Of a DNA stretch of 64,000 bases, positions 901 through 20,448 are shown piece by piece. Position 1 is the stretch's first letter, and every line of letters starts with the position of its first letter. The notes below the pieces were generated by a model. It searched no databases. It had not been told where the DNA came from and was given only the letters and a program-made list of their open reading frames with translations. The DNA is from Daejeonella sp. (lineage in GTDB: Bacteria; Bacteroidota; Bacteroidia; Sphingobacteriales; Sphingobacteriaceae), in contig NZ_JAUXXZ010000023.1 of the NCBI RefSeq assembly GCF_030684675.1, positions 1-64,000 on the forward strand, written 5' to 3'. A program made the position numbers and the translations under genes.

Positions 901-2265
901 CTAGCCCGCCATACTAAACAACTGCGTTTCCGGTTGGCTGGCCCATAGATGAGCATCAAAGGCCATACAGATATTTCTAAGGAATCGTTTTCCAGGCGGT
1001 GTTACAGCTAAACTATGATCCCTGATAATCAGCAATCCATCTTCCTGAAGTGTTTTAGCGCGCTCCAGCCCTGATACCATGGCATCAATCAAAGGCTCGT
1101 TTATATTCCAATCTGTTTTCCCTTTGCACATCAGATTTAAGATATGCTTCCGGATAATCAGATCCTCCTCCGATAAATGATGTCCTTTGAAAACAGGTAA
1201 CTTTCCACTATTCACCATTTCGAGATAATCTTCTACCTTTTTAACATTTTGTGCAAAAGCAAACCAACTGTCACTGATTGATGAAACCCCAAGGCCTACC
1301 ATCAATTGTGTGTATTGGTGGGTATAACCCATAAAATTCCGGTGAAGTTTTCCTGAATGTTCAGCCTTGAACAAGCTGTCGGTACTGAGTGCAAAATGAT
1401 CCATGCCAATCTCTTCATAACCCATTGAAGTAAACATCTGACGGCCTAATTCATATAAACGTTGCTTCTCATCTACTGAGGGAAGATCTGCTTCTGTAAA
1501 ACTCCTTTGTCCGGGTTTAATCCATGGCACATGGGCATAGCTATAAAATGCGATACGGTCGGGCATGAGTTTCTCAACCTGAAAGATCGTATCTCCCAGC
1601 CCTTCATAAGTTTGGAGCGGCAAGCCATAGATCAGATCAAAATTGATGGAAGAGTACCCAATCTTTCTTGCCAGTTCTGTTACAGCTTTTACCTGTTCAA
1701 AGCTTTGCATGCGATTGATTATTTTCTGCACCTTTGGATCAAAATCCTGTATACCAAGGCTCAGACGGCGAAAGCCCAAATCATATAAAGTTCTTAGATG
1801 GTCTTCTCTGGTATTGTTGGGATGAGCTTCAAAACTAAATTCTGCATCAGGATGTAAATCGGCACCCGCAGTCAGACCATTTATGAGAAGCTTTAGGTTT
1901 TCAGCAGCAAAGAAAGTTGGTGTACCTCCACCCAAATGAATTTCTCTGATTTTTGGTTTATCTGCAAATACCCCTTTGTACAATGCCCATTCTTTCAAAA
2001 CTGACTGAATATAAGGATCTTCCACCTGATGATTCCGGGTAATCCGGGTATTGCAGCCGCAATAAGTACAGAGACTTTCGCAGAAAGGTAAATGCACGTA
2101 CAAACTGATTCCATTCCCGGAATTACTTTGATCAAAAGAAAATTTAACAGATTCTTTCCATTGACTAATATCCGGAACATCGGTATTCCAATATGGAACA
2201 GTTGGATAACTGGTATATCGCGGAGCTGCCACGTGGTATTTATTAATCAGATTCTGGGTATTCAT
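901..2265 (-). CDS. hemN: Oxygen-independent coproporphyrinogen III oxidase (radical SAM)
   Basis: HemN decarboxylates coproporphyrinogen III to protoporphyrinogen IX without O2, in the cytoplasm. The 454-residue length fits the family. The radical-SAM cluster cysteines are C62-x3-C66-x2-C69, followed by C71 as in E. coli HemN (CxxxCxxCxC). The N-terminal APRYTSYPT and the GGGTPT SAM-binding motif are typical of true HemN rather than HemW. It is the second gene of a leftward pair, 24 bp after the hydroxyacid dehydrogenase, so both are probably transcribed from the promoter near 3300 that carries FNR-like boxes. This fits haem synthesis under oxygen limitation. Confidence 0.95.
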   Translation of the reverse strand: MNTQNLINKYHVAAPRYTSYPTVPYWNTDVPDISQWKESVKFSFDQSNSGNGISLYVHLPFCESLCTYCGCNTRITRNHQVEDPYIQSVLKEWALYKGVFADKPKIREIHLGGGTPTFFAAENLKLLINGLTAGADLHPDAEFSFEAHPNNTREDHLRTLYDLGFRRLSLGIQDFDPKVQKIINRMQSFEQVKAVTELARKIGYSSINFDLIYGLPLQTYEGLGDTIFQVEKLMPDRIAFYSYAHVPWIKPGQRSFTEADLPSVDEKQRLYELGRQMFTSMGYEEIGMDHFALSTDSLFKAEHSGKLHRNFMGYTHQYTQLMVGLGVSSISDSWFAFAQNVKKVEDYLEMVNSGKLPVFKGHHLSEEDLIIRKHILNLMCKGKTDWNINEPLIDAMVSGLERAKTLQEDGLLIIRDHSLAVTPPGKRFLRNICMAFDAHLWASQPETQLFSMAG

Positions 2266-2289: not shown

Positions 2290-3294
2290 TCAACGTTTTG
2301 AGCATCCATCAGCACATACACAGGCTTTACCTGAGCATTTTCCGGCCTGCCAGTTATCCAGGTTCTTAATGATCAGATTTGCAATTTCCTGAAGCGCTTC
2401 TTTAGTCAAAAATGCCTGATGAGGTGAAATAATTACATTCGGGAATGAAAGTAATTCTTCCATGATCGGATCTTTGACATGATCGGCACGATGATCAGAA
2501 TAGAACATATCCTTCTCAAACTCATATCCATCCAGGCCGAGCCAGCCGATCTTAGCGGTCTTTAATGCCTTAATCAAATCTTCCGATTTGATTAATCCGC
2601 CTCTGCTGGTATTAATCAGCATCACACCATTCTTCATTTTGGAAATACTCTGCATATTAATGATATGCTTTGTTTCTGGGTTTAAAGGAATATGAAGGGA
2701 GATAATATCTGACTCTTCCAAAAGCTGCTCAAAACCAACTTCCTCTATACCATCCAGATTTGGAACCGGACTACTATCATGGCCAAGGATTTTACAGCCC
2801 AGGCTCCTGAAAACTGTGGCCGTTGCTTTTCCAATCGCTCCAAGCCCAACAATTCCCACAGTTTTTCCTTTAAAATTGAAACCTATATGCTGATCTATTC
2901 TGAAATCAAACTCACGGCTACTGTTCACTGTGGAGATGATCCTTCGGCCTAAAGAAAGAGCAAGCATTAGGGTGTATTCTGAAACAGCTGCGGGGGAATA
3001 AGACGGCACATTTGCCAGTTTGATATTTCTCTTACCAGCAGCTACCCTGTCAATATGATCGGTCGACACCGAACGTGTGGTAATGTATTTAATGCCAAGA
3101 TCTGCCAGTTTTTCGATCACTTCTTCAGAAAGATCATCCTGGGTTGATACCACAACAGCCTCTTTGCCTTGTGCATAAACTGCAGTTTCAAGGCTTAGGG
3201 AATTGGAAATCAGTGTAATATCGTGTTGTTTTTGATTTGCACGAGCTACAAATTCTTTCTCAAACTCTCTAACACTATAGGCAACAACTTTCAT
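2290..3294 (-). CDS. D-2-hydroxyacid (D-lactate) dehydrogenase with a Cys-rich tail
   Basis: A 334-residue NAD-dependent D-2-hydroxyacid dehydrogenase; D-lactate dehydrogenase (LdhA type) is the most likely activity. Visible features are the TTRSVSTDHID region of the catalytic domain, the dinucleotide motif GLGAIG, the conserved NTSRGG arginine segment, a Glu-rich loop, and the catalytic SPHQAF histidine near residue 296. Unusually the protein ends in a Cys-rich stretch (C320, C325, C327, C331) absent from ordinary LdhA. It begins the leftward pair with hemN. Pyruvate-to-lactate reduction would re-oxidise NADH under low oxygen, in line with the FNR-like boxes upstream. Confidence 0.88.
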   Translation of the reverse strand: MKVVAYSVREFEKEFVARANQKQHDITLISNSLSLETAVYAQGKEAVVVSTQDDLSEEVIEKLADLGIKYITTRSVSTDHIDRVAAGKRNIKLANVPSYSPAAVSEYTLMLALSLGRRIISTVNSSREFDFRIDQHIGFNFKGKTVGIVGLGAIGKATATVFRSLGCKILGHDSSPVPNLDGIEEVGFEQLLEESDIISLHIPLNPETKHIINMQSISKMKNGVMLINTSRGGLIKSEDLIKALKTAKIGWLGLDGYEFEKDMFYSDHRADHVKDPIMEELLSFPNVIISPHQAFLTKEALQEIANLIIKNLDNWQAGKCSGKACVCADGCSKR

Positions 3295-3340
3295 TAATAA
3301 ACATTTATTCCAAAAGTACTTTTAGGAATAAGGTTTCGTA

Positions 3341-3354
3341 ATGAGTGATGTCAT
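3341..3354. promoter_or_regulatory. Weaker FNR-spaced dyad upstream of the hydroxyacid dehydrogenase/hemN pair
   Basis: ATGAGTGATGTCAT keeps the TGA-N6-TCA spacing of FNR/Crp sites and is centred about 53 bp before the hydroxyacid dehydrogenase ATG. It is less symmetrical than the neighbouring box at 3364-3375 and may be fortuitous. Confidence 0.3.
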
Positions 3355-3363
3355 AAAGAAAAA

Positions 3364-3375
3364 TGATCTTTATCA
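3364..3375. promoter_or_regulatory. FNR-type box TGAT-CTTT-ATCA
   Basis: This matches the core of the FNR consensus (TGAT-N4-ATCA) exactly, about 75 bp before the hydroxyacid dehydrogenase start (3294) and overlapping the stop codon of the regulator gene at 3373. If transcription starts about 34 nt before the ATG, the box would be centred near -41.5, a class II activation position. The upstream regulator carries the E..SR recognition helix that reads such sites (see 3373-4443). Confidence 0.5.
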
Positions 3376-4443
3376 GTTTTTCATTTTATGGAGCTTGGAA
3401 AAATCGATGATATCAATCACGCTGCCTTTCTTTTCAATGATTCCTTCATCCTTAAAATCGCTCAGGGTTCTGCTAACTGTTTCTGTAGCCATGCCTGCCA
3501 TTGATGCCAGGTCCTCCCTTGAGATGCGGATCTGGGCTTCAGAATTTTCTGTGGGATTTTGCTGCTTTGCCAGGCGAATCAGAATCTCGGCCATTCGTTT
3601 CCTTACTGAGTGATAGGCGAGCTGAAGTAATTGTTCCTCCTTCTCAATCAGATTGCTGGAGAGCACCTTTATAAATTTCTGACCAATATCTGTATAGGTA
3701 TCAAGAAGCTGCTTTACGGTATCCTTAGGAAGAAGGCAGATTGTAGTATCATCTACAGCTTCAGTAGTTTCATTATAATGATCTCCGGAAAGCATGGCCT
3801 GAATTCCCAGATATTCATCCGGCCCATACATTCCTGTCACCAATTCTCTGCCGTCTTCACTTAATTTAACAGCCTTCACCCTCCCACTAAGTATTAAATA
3901 TATGCCAGTTATTGCATCACTCTCATAATAAATAATCTGCTTTTTTCTGACCTGTTTAACCTTACGATCGGCGATAATTTTCTTCAATTCATCAAGACCC
4001 TGACCCTGATTCTGGTTAGTCAGAAGCTGGAGACTTTCAAACGATTTACTGTAAAAAGCTTCTATTTTTTCCTTTTTCTGAAAGCGCGACTCAATGGTAT
4101 TCAGTAATTCCATATCATCAAAAGGCTTAGTCAGATAATCATCGGCACCCATGTCCATACCTTTTCTCATATCGGCCCTTTCAGCTTTTGCTGTGAGAAA
4201 AATGAAGGGGATATTAGAGGTTTCCCTATTTTTTGACAAGAGATATAAAACACCATAACCATCCAATTCAGGCATCATTATATCACAAAGTATCATATCA
4301 GGAATATGCTGCTGCGCCAGCTCCACCCCTATTTTACCATTATCTGCTTCCAAAACTTCATATCCTGCAAGTTGCAGAATTTCAACAGAACTATCCCTGA
4401 TATCCTCGTTATCTTCGATTATTAGAATTTTCTTCTTTTTCAT
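3373..4443 (-). CDS. Response regulator fused to a Crp/FNR-type transcription factor
   Basis: Residues 1-115 form a receiver domain with the acidic pocket (E10, D11), phospho-acceptor D54 (LCDIMMPE) and K106 (YLTKPF). Residues about 150-280 form a cyclic-nucleotide-binding-like barrel (QIIYYESDAITGIYLILSG). The C-terminal 70 residues are a Crp-type winged helix. The recognition helix reads ATETVSRTL, with E321, S324 and R325 matching the E..SR of E. coli FNR, which specifies TTGAT half-sites. The gene follows the FixL-like kinase by 6 bp and is very probably its partner. The fusion merges the roles that FixJ and FixK play as separate proteins in rhizobia (inference). No Fe-S cysteine cluster is apparent. 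Confidence 0.9.
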   Translation of the reverse strand: MKKKKILIIEDNEDIRDSSVEILQLAGYEVLEADNGKIGVELAQQHIPDMILCDIMMPELDGYGVLYLLSKNRETSNIPFIFLTAKAERADMRKGMDMGADDYLTKPFDDMELLNTIESRFQKKEKIEAFYSKSFESLQLLTNQNQGQGLDELKKIIADRKVKQVRKKQIIYYESDAITGIYLILSGRVKAVKLSEDGRELVTGMYGPDEYLGIQAMLSGDHYNETTEAVDDTTICLLPKDTVKQLLDTYTDIGQKFIKVLSSNLIEKEEQLLQLAYHSVRKRMAEILIRLAKQQNPTENSEAQIRISREDLASMAGMATETVSRTLSDFKDEGIIEKKGSVIDIIDFSKLHKMKN

Positions 4444-4449
4444 AGAATT

Positions 4450-5637
4450 TTACTGTGGGAAATTTAGGGTAAAAATTGTTTTCTGTTTAGGCAGACTTGT
4501 AAAATTAACCTTTCCACCCATCAAATTAACATAACGCATGATAATATTAAGCCCAAGACCTGTACCCGGAATATTTCCGGTATTGTTGGCCCTGAAAAAC
4601 GGTTCAAATAAATGCTTGTGATCTGCTTCAGGTATGCCAATTCCATTATCTCTGACTGTAACAATACATTCCTTATCCGAAAGTTCAGTATTAAACTCAA
4701 TGAAGGTATTCTCGCCAGAATATTTGATGGCATTAGAAATTAAATTGATAATACAGTTCCTAAGCAAATTCTGATCCAGTAACACCGTACTATACAGCCC
4801 GGTATGCTGATAAATGATATTCTGATCCTTCTTAGCCATCATTTGCATCTCCTCAGTAATCTCTTCAGAGAGTTTGACAATATCAAATTTCGAAAAAGCT
4901 GTTTCAATTTTACCTGCCTCCAGACGTTCGAGAGAGAGAAAATCATCCAGAATGGTCGTTAAATTACCGACTGAATTTTTAATCTTACTTACATGCTTTG
5001 AAATATTGGCTCCATCATCCTGAAGTTTATACTTTTCAATCAATGATGCAGATAATTGTATGGAGCTAAGTGGTGTTCGAAATTCATGGGAAGCCATTGA
5101 TACAAACCGGCTTTTCAATTGATTGAGTTCCTTTTCCTTTTCGAGAGATTTACTAACCGTTTCTTTAGCCACCTCAAGTTCTGTTACAGACTTCTGAAGA
5201 GAATTTGTACGATCTTCAACTAATTTTTCGAGTTGTGAAGCATAATGCAATATCTGGGCCTCTGCTTCTTTTTCCCTGGTTAGGTCATGAATAAACCCGG
5301 TATAAATTGTTCTGCCTGAATACTTTACCTCACTTACTGCCAAACGGAAAGGAAATAAAGTACCATCCTTCTTCAGGCCTTTGACATCACGCCCCATACC
5401 AATGATATGGGGAGTACCCGTCCGCTGATAACGTGCAATGTATTCATCATGCTGACTCTTATCAGGCTGAGGCATCAGCATGGAAACATTCCTTCCGGTA
5501 ACCTCCTCAATAGTATAGCCAAACAAGGCGCAAGCAGAAGGATTTATTGACTCAATTAGTCCACGCTCATCAATTGTAATGATTCCATCAATCGCATTTT
5601 CAATAATAGCATGTAATAATGCGCCTTTTTCAGTCAT
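4450..5637 (-). CDS. FixL-like haem-PAS oxygen-sensing histidine kinase
   Basis: Soluble 395-residue kinase: PAS domain (about 5-125), coiled coil (130-175), HisKA with phospho-acceptor H184 (MASHEFRTPL), and a HATPase domain with DNGIGIPE and GTGLGLNI. The PAS domain keeps the residues that bind haem and read O2 in Bradyrhizobium FixL: proximal His (H63, SQHDEY), the propionate Arg (R69, IARY), the PHII pair (H77, I78), the distal Arg (R83, IIGMGR) and the LAV leucine (L99). This points to a haem-based O2 sensor rather than a generic PAS kinase. There are no transmembrane segments, as in Bradyrhizobium FixL. It sits first in a two-gene unit with the REC-FNR regulator. Haem binding is inferred from motif matching. 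Confidence 0.85.
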   Translation of the reverse strand: MTEKGALLHAIIENAIDGIITIDERGLIESINPSACALFGYTIEEVTGRNVSMLMPQPDKSQHDEYIARYQRTGTPHIIGMGRDVKGLKKDGTLFPFRLAVSEVKYSGRTIYTGFIHDLTREKEAEAQILHYASQLEKLVEDRTNSLQKSVTELEVAKETVSKSLEKEKELNQLKSRFVSMASHEFRTPLSSIQLSASLIEKYKLQDDGANISKHVSKIKNSVGNLTTILDDFLSLERLEAGKIETAFSKFDIVKLSEEITEEMQMMAKKDQNIIYQHTGLYSTVLLDQNLLRNCIINLISNAIKYSGENTFIEFNTELSDKECIVTVRDNGIGIPEADHKHLFEPFFRANNTGNIPGTGLGLNIIMRYVNLMGGKVNFTSLPKQKTIFTLNFPQ

Positions 5638-12306: not shown

Positions 12307-12750
12307 CTATTTCCCGTGCACCCCGGTTTTAATATCTTTGGTTGTTTTCTGATATTCAAAAACCTTATCTCTTATAATTCCGGAGATACTAATAGCCCTC
12401 TCCTTAGCAAGTTCAGCCTTTGAACCTTCAAACAATTGATCCACAGTTAGAATGAAAAGCTTGTTCCATCGATCAAAATGAGTTTTACTAAGCGGTTCAA
12501 TAGCGTGTAAATGCTTGTGCAAATGTACCGGATTACCTTCATAAGATCCTGTAAAAAGGATTACATTTTCCCAGAAATCATATAAGAGTGGGATATGTGT
12601 TGACCAGTTAACCTTAGCAACATCCTGAAAAATAAACCCAAGTTGTTTATCGGCTAATACTTTTTTATAGAAAGCATCAACCATAAGTTCAATATCAGAT
12701 CTATTTTCAATATCCTTTTTCAAGCTATTTTTCAGTATAAATATCAGCAA
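12307..12750 (-). CDS. Group III truncated haemoglobin
   Basis: A 147-residue (or about 138-residue) globin: the opening KKDIENRSDIELMVDAFYKKVLAD and the HIPLLYDFW segment are typical of group III trHbs, and the proximal histidine lies in HKHLHAIEPLS. These haem proteins bind O2 or NO and are often linked to NO handling. The gene is last in the leftward nos operon. The given ATG overlaps the hemerythrin gene by 26 bp; a TTG at 12723 would start immediately after that gene and is a plausible alternative because family members begin near the KKDIEN segment. Confidence 0.85.
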   Translation of the reverse strand: MLIFILKNSLKKDIENRSDIELMVDAFYKKVLADKQLGFIFQDVAKVNWSTHIPLLYDFWENVILFTGSYEGNPVHLHKHLHAIEPLSKTHFDRWNKLFILTVDQLFEGSKAELAKERAISISGIIRDKVFEYQKTTKDIKTGVHGK

Positions 12751-13165
12751 GTTTATTTAAACCTTCATCAGGACAACATTCCTGAATCAGTGGAAATATC
12801 ACACGGTCTTCCTTACGTACATGGCTTTCGAGAGCCCGTCCGATTACATCAAGCTGAGTAGGAAGATCCTGATCAATATTTATAGAATTAAACAGGGAAT
12901 GTAATTCCTGATGTTCGGCTTTCATACAAGTAAGTAAACTATCCAGAGTAGCATTTATACCCTTTATCATTGGTATCATTTTCTCTTCCTTTTCAAAATG
13001 ATCTAACAGCTCTTCCCGATAATATTTCATTGCATACTCTGCTTTCCCTTCTGCATCAAGCGGAAGTCCCTTGAAAGGAGGTGAATCTGATCGTAACAAC
13101 CTGGCCAGTATCAATGTCCCGTGATGATCTCTTGATAATGGAATAAGTGCTTCATGTCTTTTCAT
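12725..13165 (-). CDS. Hemerythrin-like HHE domain protein
   Basis: A 146-residue four-helix protein with the histidine/carboxylate pattern of hemerythrin HHE proteins: SRDHHG, DHFEKEE, a mid-chain AEHQEL and SHVRKEDRVIFPLI. Such domains hold a di-iron centre that binds O2 or NO. The start is two bases upstream of the nosY stop, and the end overlaps the globin gene, so all are likely co-transcribed. Together with the globin it adds a gas-binding pair to the nos operon, perhaps protecting the copper enzyme from NO or O2 (inference). Confidence 0.87.
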   Translation of the reverse strand: MKRHEALIPLSRDHHGTLILARLLRSDSPPFKGLPLDAEGKAEYAMKYYREELLDHFEKEEKMIPMIKGINATLDSLLTCMKAEHQELHSLFNSINIDQDLPTQLDVIGRALESHVRKEDRVIFPLIQECCPDEGLNKLADIYTEK

Positions 13166-19737: not shown

Positions 19738-19749
19738 TGATAAACATCA
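19738..19749. promoter_or_regulatory. FNR-type box TGAT-AAAC-ATCA in the nos/crp divergent promoter
   Basis: An exact match to the FNR core (TGAT-N4-ATCA) lies between the leftward cytochrome c/nos operon (start 19654) and the rightward crp-like gene (start 19828). It is within 90 bp of both start codons and may serve either promoter. Confidence 0.55.
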
Positions 19750-19827
19750 TATATTTGAATAAGCAAAGTCACAAACCGTGCCATGTCCAGACTTTAATTT
19801 TGCTTATCGCTCATAACATCATAGAGA

Positions 19828-20448
19828 ATGATTGATATCAACTTATTACTTGCATGGGGGGCTACTTATAAAAAAATAAGTTCAGGAGAAACTATCTTCC
19901 GCGAAGGTCAGATTTGCACCTACTATTTTCAATTAGTAAGTGGAAATGTAAGATGGATTAACATTGATGCTGAAGGCAGAGAATGTATCCATAGTATTAT
20001 TGAACCTGGTGAATCTTTCGGTGAATTCCCGCTCTTCGATGATGAACCTTATGCCGCATCAGCAATTGCCGAATCAGACTGCATTCTGATAAGACTTTAT
20101 AAGTCAACATTTATCAATCTGCTGAAGGAAAATACGAATTTGCTTTTTGATTTTACCAGATTATTAACCAGAAGATTAAGATTCAGGTATGCTGTTATTC
20201 AATCATTTGCCTGCCACAACCCTGAAACAAGAATAATTAATCTGATTAACCATCTGAAAGCAGAAAACAAGAACTTCTGTAAAGAGTGCAATCAATTAAA
20301 ATTAACCCGACAGCAAATAGCTTGCATGACTGGTCTGAGGGTTGAAACCGTTATCCGAACCATGCGTTTAATGCATGAAAAAGGAGAACTGGTAATTAGT
20401 AAGGGTAAGGTGTATTGCAAGGATATGATTGAAGTCATAGCGACATAA
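19828..20448 (+). CDS. Crp/Fnr-family transcription regulator
   Basis: A 206-residue regulator: cyclic-nucleotide-binding-like barrel (residues 15-115, with ISSGETIFREGQ and GESFGEFPLFDD), a long dimer helix, and a C-terminal HTH. The recognition helix reads LRVETVIRTMR; E173 and R177 match FNR but the usual Ser is I176, hinting at an altered half-site such as TGAC. A CKEC motif (about residues 150-153) lies between the dimer helix and HTH, not at the N-terminus as in FNR, so an FNR-type Fe-S cluster is unlikely. Divergent transcription from the nos operon suggests it regulates N2O respiration, perhaps in response to NO (inference). Confidence 0.88.
   Translation: MIDINLLLAWGATYKKISSGETIFREGQICTYYFQLVSGNVRWINIDAEGRECIHSIIEPGESFGEFPLFDDEPYAASAIAESDCILIRLYKSTFINLLKENTNLLFDFTRLLTRRLRFRYAVIQSFACHNPETRIINLINHLKAENKNFCKECNQLKLTRQQIACMTGLRVETVIRTMRLMHEKGELVISKGKVYCKDMIEVIAT

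Follow-up and report, generated by a model that had tools for sequence, protein, structure and literature searches.

A FixL-like haem-PAS kinase and a receiver-FNR fusion regulator predicted to form a one-step oxygen switch in Daejeonella and other Bacteroidota

In a Daejeonella sp. genome (G000, assembly GCF_030684675.1), we found a FixL-like sensor histidine kinase encoded beside a response regulator in which a receiver domain is fused to an FNR-type DNA-binding module. The pair lies in the first 64 kb of contig C7 (NZ_JAUXXZ010000023.1), the stretch analysed here and called the window; G, L and C numbers denote the genomes, loci and contigs of the comparison set. We consider it probable that the pair is an oxygen switch, in which the signal would pass in one step from the kinase through the regulator to the cbb3 oxidase genes, to ldh-hemN and to a CRP-like gene linked to the nos genes. 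This conclusion draws on the domain make-up of the two proteins, their conserved haem residues, pairing and synteny of the genes, promoter footprints and co-occurrence. The strongest context for the pair is the cbb3 oxidase genes, which are beyond the window. As the window begins at the contig end, just beyond hemN, these genes were outside the view of the first-pass annotation, which had been made from the window sequence; ccoN of this genome is on a separate contig, C34.

Both reading frames proposed in the first-pass annotation stood (Table 1), the domains that it had assigned to them all scored above the Pfam cut-offs, and the residues that it had singled out (H63, R69, H77, I78, R83 and L99 in the kinase; D54, E321, S324 and R325 in the regulator) are where it had placed them. 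The genes are both on the minus strand and 6 bp apart, with the kinase gene first. The kinase comprises PAS, HisKA and HATPase_c domains, and its best match in the PDB was Bradyrhizobium FixL (1dp6, E 5e-32), to which it aligns without gaps over 122 residues (8–129). In this alignment, H63 and R83 are the equivalents of the proximal F-alpha histidine and the distal Arg220. The haem/O2 residues of FixL map onto the six kinase residues. These would be residues 200, 206, 214, 215, 220 and 236 of Bradyrhizobium FixL if the 131-residue chain of 1dp6 is the 140–270 construct named in the accessible part of PMC10765370.

Conservation was assessed in 54 FixL-like kinases (PAS domain at least 45% identical over at least 100 residues) that are encoded beside homologous regulators and are distinct over their first 200 residues. 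H63, R83 and L99 were each present in all 54, and I78 in 52. For comparison, we aligned 30 PAS domains that had loci, out of 117 matches in eight genomes; the His/Ile/Arg/Leu quartet occurred in just two, the Daejeonella kinase itself and one encoded 2.8 kb upstream of the regulator gene in G037. The conservation across the 54 kinases points to a haem-type PAS domain, as had been proposed. The kinase scored 167 bits against the FixL equivalog NF041777, a model built on rhizobial full-length FixL, which is below the cut-off of 850. The 50 Foldseek matches listed for the kinase model were kinase-core and long PAS-kinase structures, which say little about the haem pocket.

The regulator carries Response_reg, cNMP_binding and HTH_Crp_2 domains in one chain. 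Among homologues (alignment A2), receiver residues E10, D11, D54 and K106 are invariant and T84 nearly so; in the ExxSR recognition helix, E321 and R325 are invariant and S324 varies. No CxxC motif for a 4Fe-4S cluster was found anywhere in the chain, the N-terminus of which is the receiver. The 50 Foldseek matches listed for the regulator model were CRP/FNR structures, and the NCBIfam Fnr model NF008365 gave 94 bits, short of its cut-off of 228. On these sequence matches, the protein is assignable both to the two-component response regulators and to the CRP/FNR superfamily.

A search of other Bacteroidota for such pairs, suggested in the first-pass annotation, recovered a full-length regulator in 37 of 60 relatives (matches read manually), including 23 of the 37 genomes from the Sphingobacteriaceae, the family to which Daejeonella belongs. 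Of 92 loci with a full-length regulator, 87 had a kinase gene on the same strand no more than 0.6 kb upstream; the set includes at least seven duplicates in which one gene was fetched twice, and no such upstream kinase was found at L019, L098 and L106–L108. The order kinase, regulator, ldh (whole or N-terminal half), hemN was seen in 27 of 62 loci. Within the fetched stretches, a CcoG-like gene occurred at 27/62 loci and a CcoN-like gene at 22/62, mostly just past hemN on the opposite strand and accompanied by genes for TauE/SafE-, FixH- and CcoP-like proteins. These names rest on our reading of the sequences, except for hemN (TIGR00538) and ccoN (TIGR00780, above cut-off). In the window, the neighbours reported earlier were borne out, hemN by a TIGR00538 match above cut-off and the D-2-hydroxyacid dehydrogenase gene by profile matches. 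Across the 60 genomes, 27 had both the regulator and ccoN, 10 the regulator only, five ccoN only and 18 neither (Fisher p 1.6e-4); within the genus the corresponding numbers were 11, 1, 0 and 8 (p 7e-5). As related genomes are not independent, these p-values are guides only.

Promoter sequences provide the link to targets. The first-pass annotation had reported FNR-like boxes TGATCTTTATCA at 3364–3375 and TGATAAACATCA at 19738–19749, and both exist. Seven copies of TGAT-N4-ATCA were found in the window against 2.4 expected, a number reached in 2 of 100 shuffles and so mildly above chance, and TTGAT-N4-ATCAA with one mismatch was not enriched there. As a regulon marker, strict TTGAT-N4-ATCAA was rejected, with 18 genome matches versus 44 for the same half-sites with an N6 spacer, and was replaced by TGAY-N4-ATCA, which we take as the corrected box consensus. 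The weight of the boxes comes from cross-genome conservation and not from counts in the window. Among 2816 dyads scanned (each of the 256 four-letter words as an inverted repeat, with a spacer of 0–10), TGAT-N4-ATCA ranked first upstream of ldh (18/22 and 6/10 promoters) and joint second upstream of ccoN (6/14). Of the 24 boxed ldh promoters, 21 have a left half-site that includes the stop codon of the regulator gene and a right half-site in non-coding DNA, a count that leaves L101 unmeasured. The box is 20 bp beyond the stop codon in L064, and it has been kept in L066, where ldh does not adjoin the regulator gene. The conservation pattern marks the box at 3364–3375 as a phylogenetic footprint. 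As no notable dyad was found upstream of hemN itself (1/31), hemN is taken to be part of the ldh operon. The dyad was also found in 8 of 58 regions upstream of the kinase gene; these occurrences were scattered and autoregulation is not claimed.

In Bacteroidota, the -7 promoter element has the consensus TAnnTTTG. Allowing one mismatch to this element and boxes between -115 and -60, the distance from the dyad centre to the -7 element was 51 bp in 15 of 17 boxed ccoN promoters (30 loci examined), the other two having 50 and 52 bp. It was likewise 51 bp in 20 of 23 boxed ldh promoters (32 examined), with 52 bp in two and no element in one. Two unrelated operons therefore have one rigid layout. 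If the -7 element is taken at its name, the dyad centre would be near -61.5, the position of CRP/FNR proteins in class-I activation. Information content per column is 2.0 bits in the half-sites and 0.6 in the spacer for 16 non-redundant ldh promoters, and 1.9 and 0.75 for 15 non-redundant ccoN promoters. The half-site values are high by construction, as boxed promoters only were used, which leaves the spacer and -7 columns unaffected. A further TCA half-site is found near position 32 of these composite promoters.

Among the 18 family genomes with the regulator and a fetched ccoN locus, 16 have TGAY-N4-ATCA at -86 to -107 of ccoN. No box was found at that place in the remaining two, G022 and G033, or in two regulator-negative genomes, G029 and G023, the latter having one at -260. 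When 450 bp was searched at a fixed spacing of 44–46 bp, the composite of dyad and -7 element preceded ccoN at 21 of the 27 regulator-positive loci and at one of the three negative ones (G038). Over whole genomes, TGAYNNNNATCA-N44to46-TANNTTTR was compared with a single shifted control, the same pattern with N50to52, giving 168 versus 71 matches in the 37 regulator-positive genomes and 36 versus 27 in the 23 negative ones. The Daejeonella genome has five composite sites. Three precede ldh, ccoN (box at C34:11831–11842) and the CRP-like gene at 19828; the other two precede a dioxygenase-like gene (C34:23428) and a pair of genes of which the last encodes a YceI-like protein (C3:45012), both named from our reading of the sequence. 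Taken together, the gene pairing, the conserved boxes with their rigid spacing and the box enrichment that tracks the regulator support the earlier proposal of a single-step signal.

From these data we propose the following. In FixL, loss of O2 from the haem turns the kinase on. The FixL-type haem-PAS kinase would likewise sense O2, and when O2 is low its haem would lose O2 and the kinase would phosphorylate Asp54 of its operon partner. The partner would be an FNR-like activator that is without Fe-S cysteines and receives its signal through the receiver domain. Once phosphorylated, it would bind TGAY-N4-ATCA dyads whose centres precede the -7 element by about 51 bp and, from this site, activate transcription in the class-I manner of CRP and FNR. 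The predicted targets are the cbb3 oxidase operon and ldh-hemN and, in this subclade, also the CRP-like gene beside nos. One protein would thus do the work of rhizobial FixJ and FixK, and would substitute for the Fe-S FNR still present in some relatives.

Several observations weigh against this proposal. Two of the six kinase residues that had been singled out vary in the 54 FixL-like kinases, R69 being kept in 31 and H77 in 30; the other four are those conserved above. The hydrophobic distal pocket of FixL is presumably formed by I215, I218 and L236, here I78, M81 and L99. At the Ile218 position (residue 81, codon 5395–5397, minus strand), 21 of the 54 kinases, all retaining the haem His and Arg, have Lys in place of the Met found here, and a polar residue close to bound O2 would be unusual. 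Such variation, and the changed cofactor of some members of the FixL PAS cluster described in the accessible part of PMC10468136, would fit a PAS domain that does not bind haem and senses another ligand or only dimerises. We think this quite improbable, as H63 does not vary and, according to the same part of PMC10468136, haem binding in that cluster is determined primarily by the F-alpha histidine. Changes at R69 appear tolerable because S. meliloti FixL with the corresponding Arg200 replaced retains its haem spectra (PMC10765370, accessible part). The predicted structure models are of low pTM (predicted template modelling score; 0.48 and 0.46), and haem and O2 binding, activation at low O2, phosphotransfer, and direct DNA binding and activation are steps that we infer.

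The remaining adverse points, besides the non-independence noted above, concern the target genes. ccoN is absent from 10 of the 37 regulator-positive genomes, and six of the 27 regulator-positive ccoN loci (G022, G033, G039, G044, G045 and G058) are without the composite. The spacing peak in the Daejeonella genome is thin, with five composites at 44–46 bp versus 23 across spacings of 30–60 bp, so the 60-genome test was used in place of that histogram. The regulator-negative G038, which has a Cys-type FNR on the same contig, carries the composite at ccoN, and the composite is therefore not exclusive to the fusion. The boxes might accordingly be read by another CRP/FNR protein while the fusion controls something else, and the Daejeonella genome does encode four further cNMP-type regulators. 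This is unlikely, given that the excess of composites tracks the fusion over 60 genomes, that 21 of the 24 ldh boxes begin at the stop codon of the fusion gene itself and that an orthologous Cys-type FNR was not found in the Daejeonella genome.

The Bacteroidota Cys-type FNR (represented by L142, CxxC-N8-C) is encoded no more than 4 kb from ccoN in the regulator-negative G023 and G029. Within the family, matches at least 44% identical to L142 were found in 0/23 fusion-positive and 3/14 negative genomes. The closest relative of the L142 protein in the Daejeonella genome is the fusion regulator itself, and none of the five cNMP proteins of that genome has an N-terminal CxxC. Against exclusion, five genomes outside the family (G039, G041, G043, G048 and G051) have both the fusion and a Cys-type FNR, and a more distant relative with other cysteines is present within it, in the fusion-positive G021, G025 and G031 and the negative G030. 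The fusion thus excludes the Cys-type FNR only within the family and only for the orthologous type. In a tree of CRP domains, the fusions and the Cys-type FNRs are on separate sides of a weak backbone (48/69) with the bootstrap unsettled.

Outside Sphingobacteriaceae, the regulator is retained and its partner kinase often has another type of PAS domain or an N-terminal receiver (L016, L063 and L103). Among the 17 other partner kinases with the PAS domain aligned over at least 94 residues, 13 have His in the H63 column, four of these have Arg in the R83 column, and the I78 and L99 pair was found in none. It is conceivable, though we would not put it at even chances, that the receiver-FNR fusion is a class-wide module of Bacteroidia that replaced the Fe-S FNR. 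Its FNR-type output and promoter grammar (dyad, spacer of about 45 bp, TAnnTTTR and, near position 32, a second half-site) would stay fixed, and its input would change with the partner kinase, which has a FixL-type haem-PAS domain in Sphingobacteriaceae and another PAS type or an N-terminal receiver elsewhere. An exchangeable kinase would then have taken over O2 sensing from the DNA-binding protein.

At the nos genes, the -7 element that goes with the box at 19738–19749 is on the plus strand, the canonical distance away, and the box therefore faces the CRP-like gene, not the divergent cytochrome c-nosZ genes. The earlier claim of an FNR-like box there was correct as to the box and not as to the gene served, and the composite was kept in two (L183 and L184) of seven relatives with the region, and was not found in L185–L189. 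If used, it would give the subclade a second tier, like that from FixJ to FixK. This composite, with nosZ, a hemerythrin-domain gene and a putative truncated globin (12307–12750) in the window, would suit a haem-binding PAS domain that responds to NO, CO or haem redox state and reports nitrogen-oxide or redox stress. This too is improbable, given that the recurrent neighbours across the family are hemN and cbb3 genes, that the nos-side composite has so narrow a distribution and that the distal Arg83 is invariant.

The components of the proposed oxygen switch are already known, and its wiring differs from that of known systems. Rhizobial FixL-FixJ-FixK shares the FixL-type haem-PAS kinase, FNR-like boxes, and cbb3 oxidase and hemN targets, but FixJ (a receiver with a LuxR-type helix-turn-helix) and FixK are separate and FixK is made on the order of FixJ, whereas here there is one chain. 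In hFixL-FxkR-FixK, a FixL-variant kinase also leads to anaerobox control of fixNOQP, but through a hybrid kinase, a separate FxkR that reads a K-box and then a separate FixK (PMC7888657, accessible part). The accessible parts of PMC4999443 and PMC7888657 thus describe separate proteins in each system. FixK of alphaproteobacteria resembles the fusion in being FNR-like without Fe-S cysteines and downstream of FixL, but stands alone without a receiver and is controlled via its own transcription. FNR, FnrN and the Cys-type FNR of L142 share the fold and have similar boxes and a similar recognition helix (ETVSR in the fusion, ETAIR in L142); FNR and FnrN sense O2 themselves via N-terminal cysteines, unlike the fusion, which has a receiver instead. 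No FixL-type kinase with a receiver-FNR fusion in Bacteroidota was found among the titles and abstract openings listed by searches of the open-access literature, and reports elsewhere are possible. If correct, our proposal describes a circuit through which Bacteroidota sense O2 for cbb3 respiration, with FixL-FixJ-FixK collapsed to one phosphorelay step. The pair would allow a test of what the extra rhizobial transcriptional tier adds (delay, gain), the natural receiver-gated FNR could serve as a model for phosphorylation replacing an Fe-S cluster, and the promoter grammar could be used to list regulons in many genomes.

Table 1. Features of the kinase-regulator locus and predicted targets in the window
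Feature	Position	Strand	Basis and remarks
FixL-like sensor histidine kinase, 395 aa	4450..5637	-	Open reading frame and domain matches; PAS from residue 7, nothing N-terminal of it
Haem-type PAS, residues 7–129	5251..5619	-	PDB alignment, Pfam, conservation; H63 codon 5449–5451
Presumed phospho-acceptor His184 codon (SHEFRTP)	5086..5088	-	Invariant in kinase alignment A1
Response regulator REC-cNMP-HTH_Crp, 356 aa	3373..4443	-	Open reading frame and domain matches
Receiver (REC) domain, residues 6–117	4093..4428	-	Pfam; Asp54 codon 4282–4284
cNMP-type barrel, residues 163–250	3694..3957	-	Pfam
FNR-type helix-turn-helix, residues 283–353, TETVSR recognition helix	3385..3597	-	Pfam and alignment
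FNR-like dyad TGATAAAGATCA	3364..3375	-	Starts at regulator stop codon, 69 bp from ldh start codon; cross-genome conservation
Composite promoter of ldh-hemN: dyad, 45 bp, TACTTTTG (-7 element)	3311..3375	-	Spacing analysis
D-2-hydroxyacid (D-lactate type) dehydrogenase, ldh, predicted target	2290..3294	-	Profile match and composite promoter
hemN, oxygen-independent coproporphyrinogen III oxidase, predicted co-transcribed target	901..2265	-	TIGR00538 above cut-off; synteny
Composite promoter TGATAAACATCA, 45 bp, TAATTTTG, before CRP-like gene	19738..19802	+	Spacing; in 2/7 relatives
CRP/FNR-family regulator, divergent from cytochrome c-nosZ, predicted second-tier target	19828..20448	+	Domain match

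Some further features were seen in passing. Near the nos genes, the hemerythrin-domain reading frame overlaps that of the putative truncated globin by about 26 bp (12307–13165, minus strand); the globin resemblance of 12307–12750 was seen by eye only, with no Pfam match. The gene after the regulator in Pedobacter and others (gene family 7, e.g. L036–L042 and L047–L052) is an ldh of only about 120–190 codons, the N-terminal part of the dehydrogenase; this short form is found at 22/62 loci and the promoter box has been retained in 18 of the 22. At several composite sites in other families (e.g. G038:C111:37736, G039:C15:58821, G041:C94:3529, G049:C35:7496 and G054:C69:7172), a second dyad, TGA-N6-TCA, is found about 22 bp downstream of the first. 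As the double dyad is also present at ccoN of a genome with Cys-type FNR, it may represent a form common to the FNR promoters of Bacteroidia in general. In other families, partner kinases such as those of L067, L077, L095 and L102 have a type of PAS domain in which the FixL haem column holds His within another motif, HxxxR...RxMGxG. Sphingobacterial-type pairs were found under other family names in L059 (Dyadobacter), L061 (a Flavobacterium metagenome-assembled genome) and L062 (a Ferruginibacter one), which may reflect transfer or, for the two metagenome-assembled genomes, a binning error. Finally, L103 (G037:C11:98712-109767) has in a row a FixL-like kinase, a small open reading frame, a receiver-HisKA-HATPase protein and the receiver-FNR regulator, a possible longer phosphorelay.

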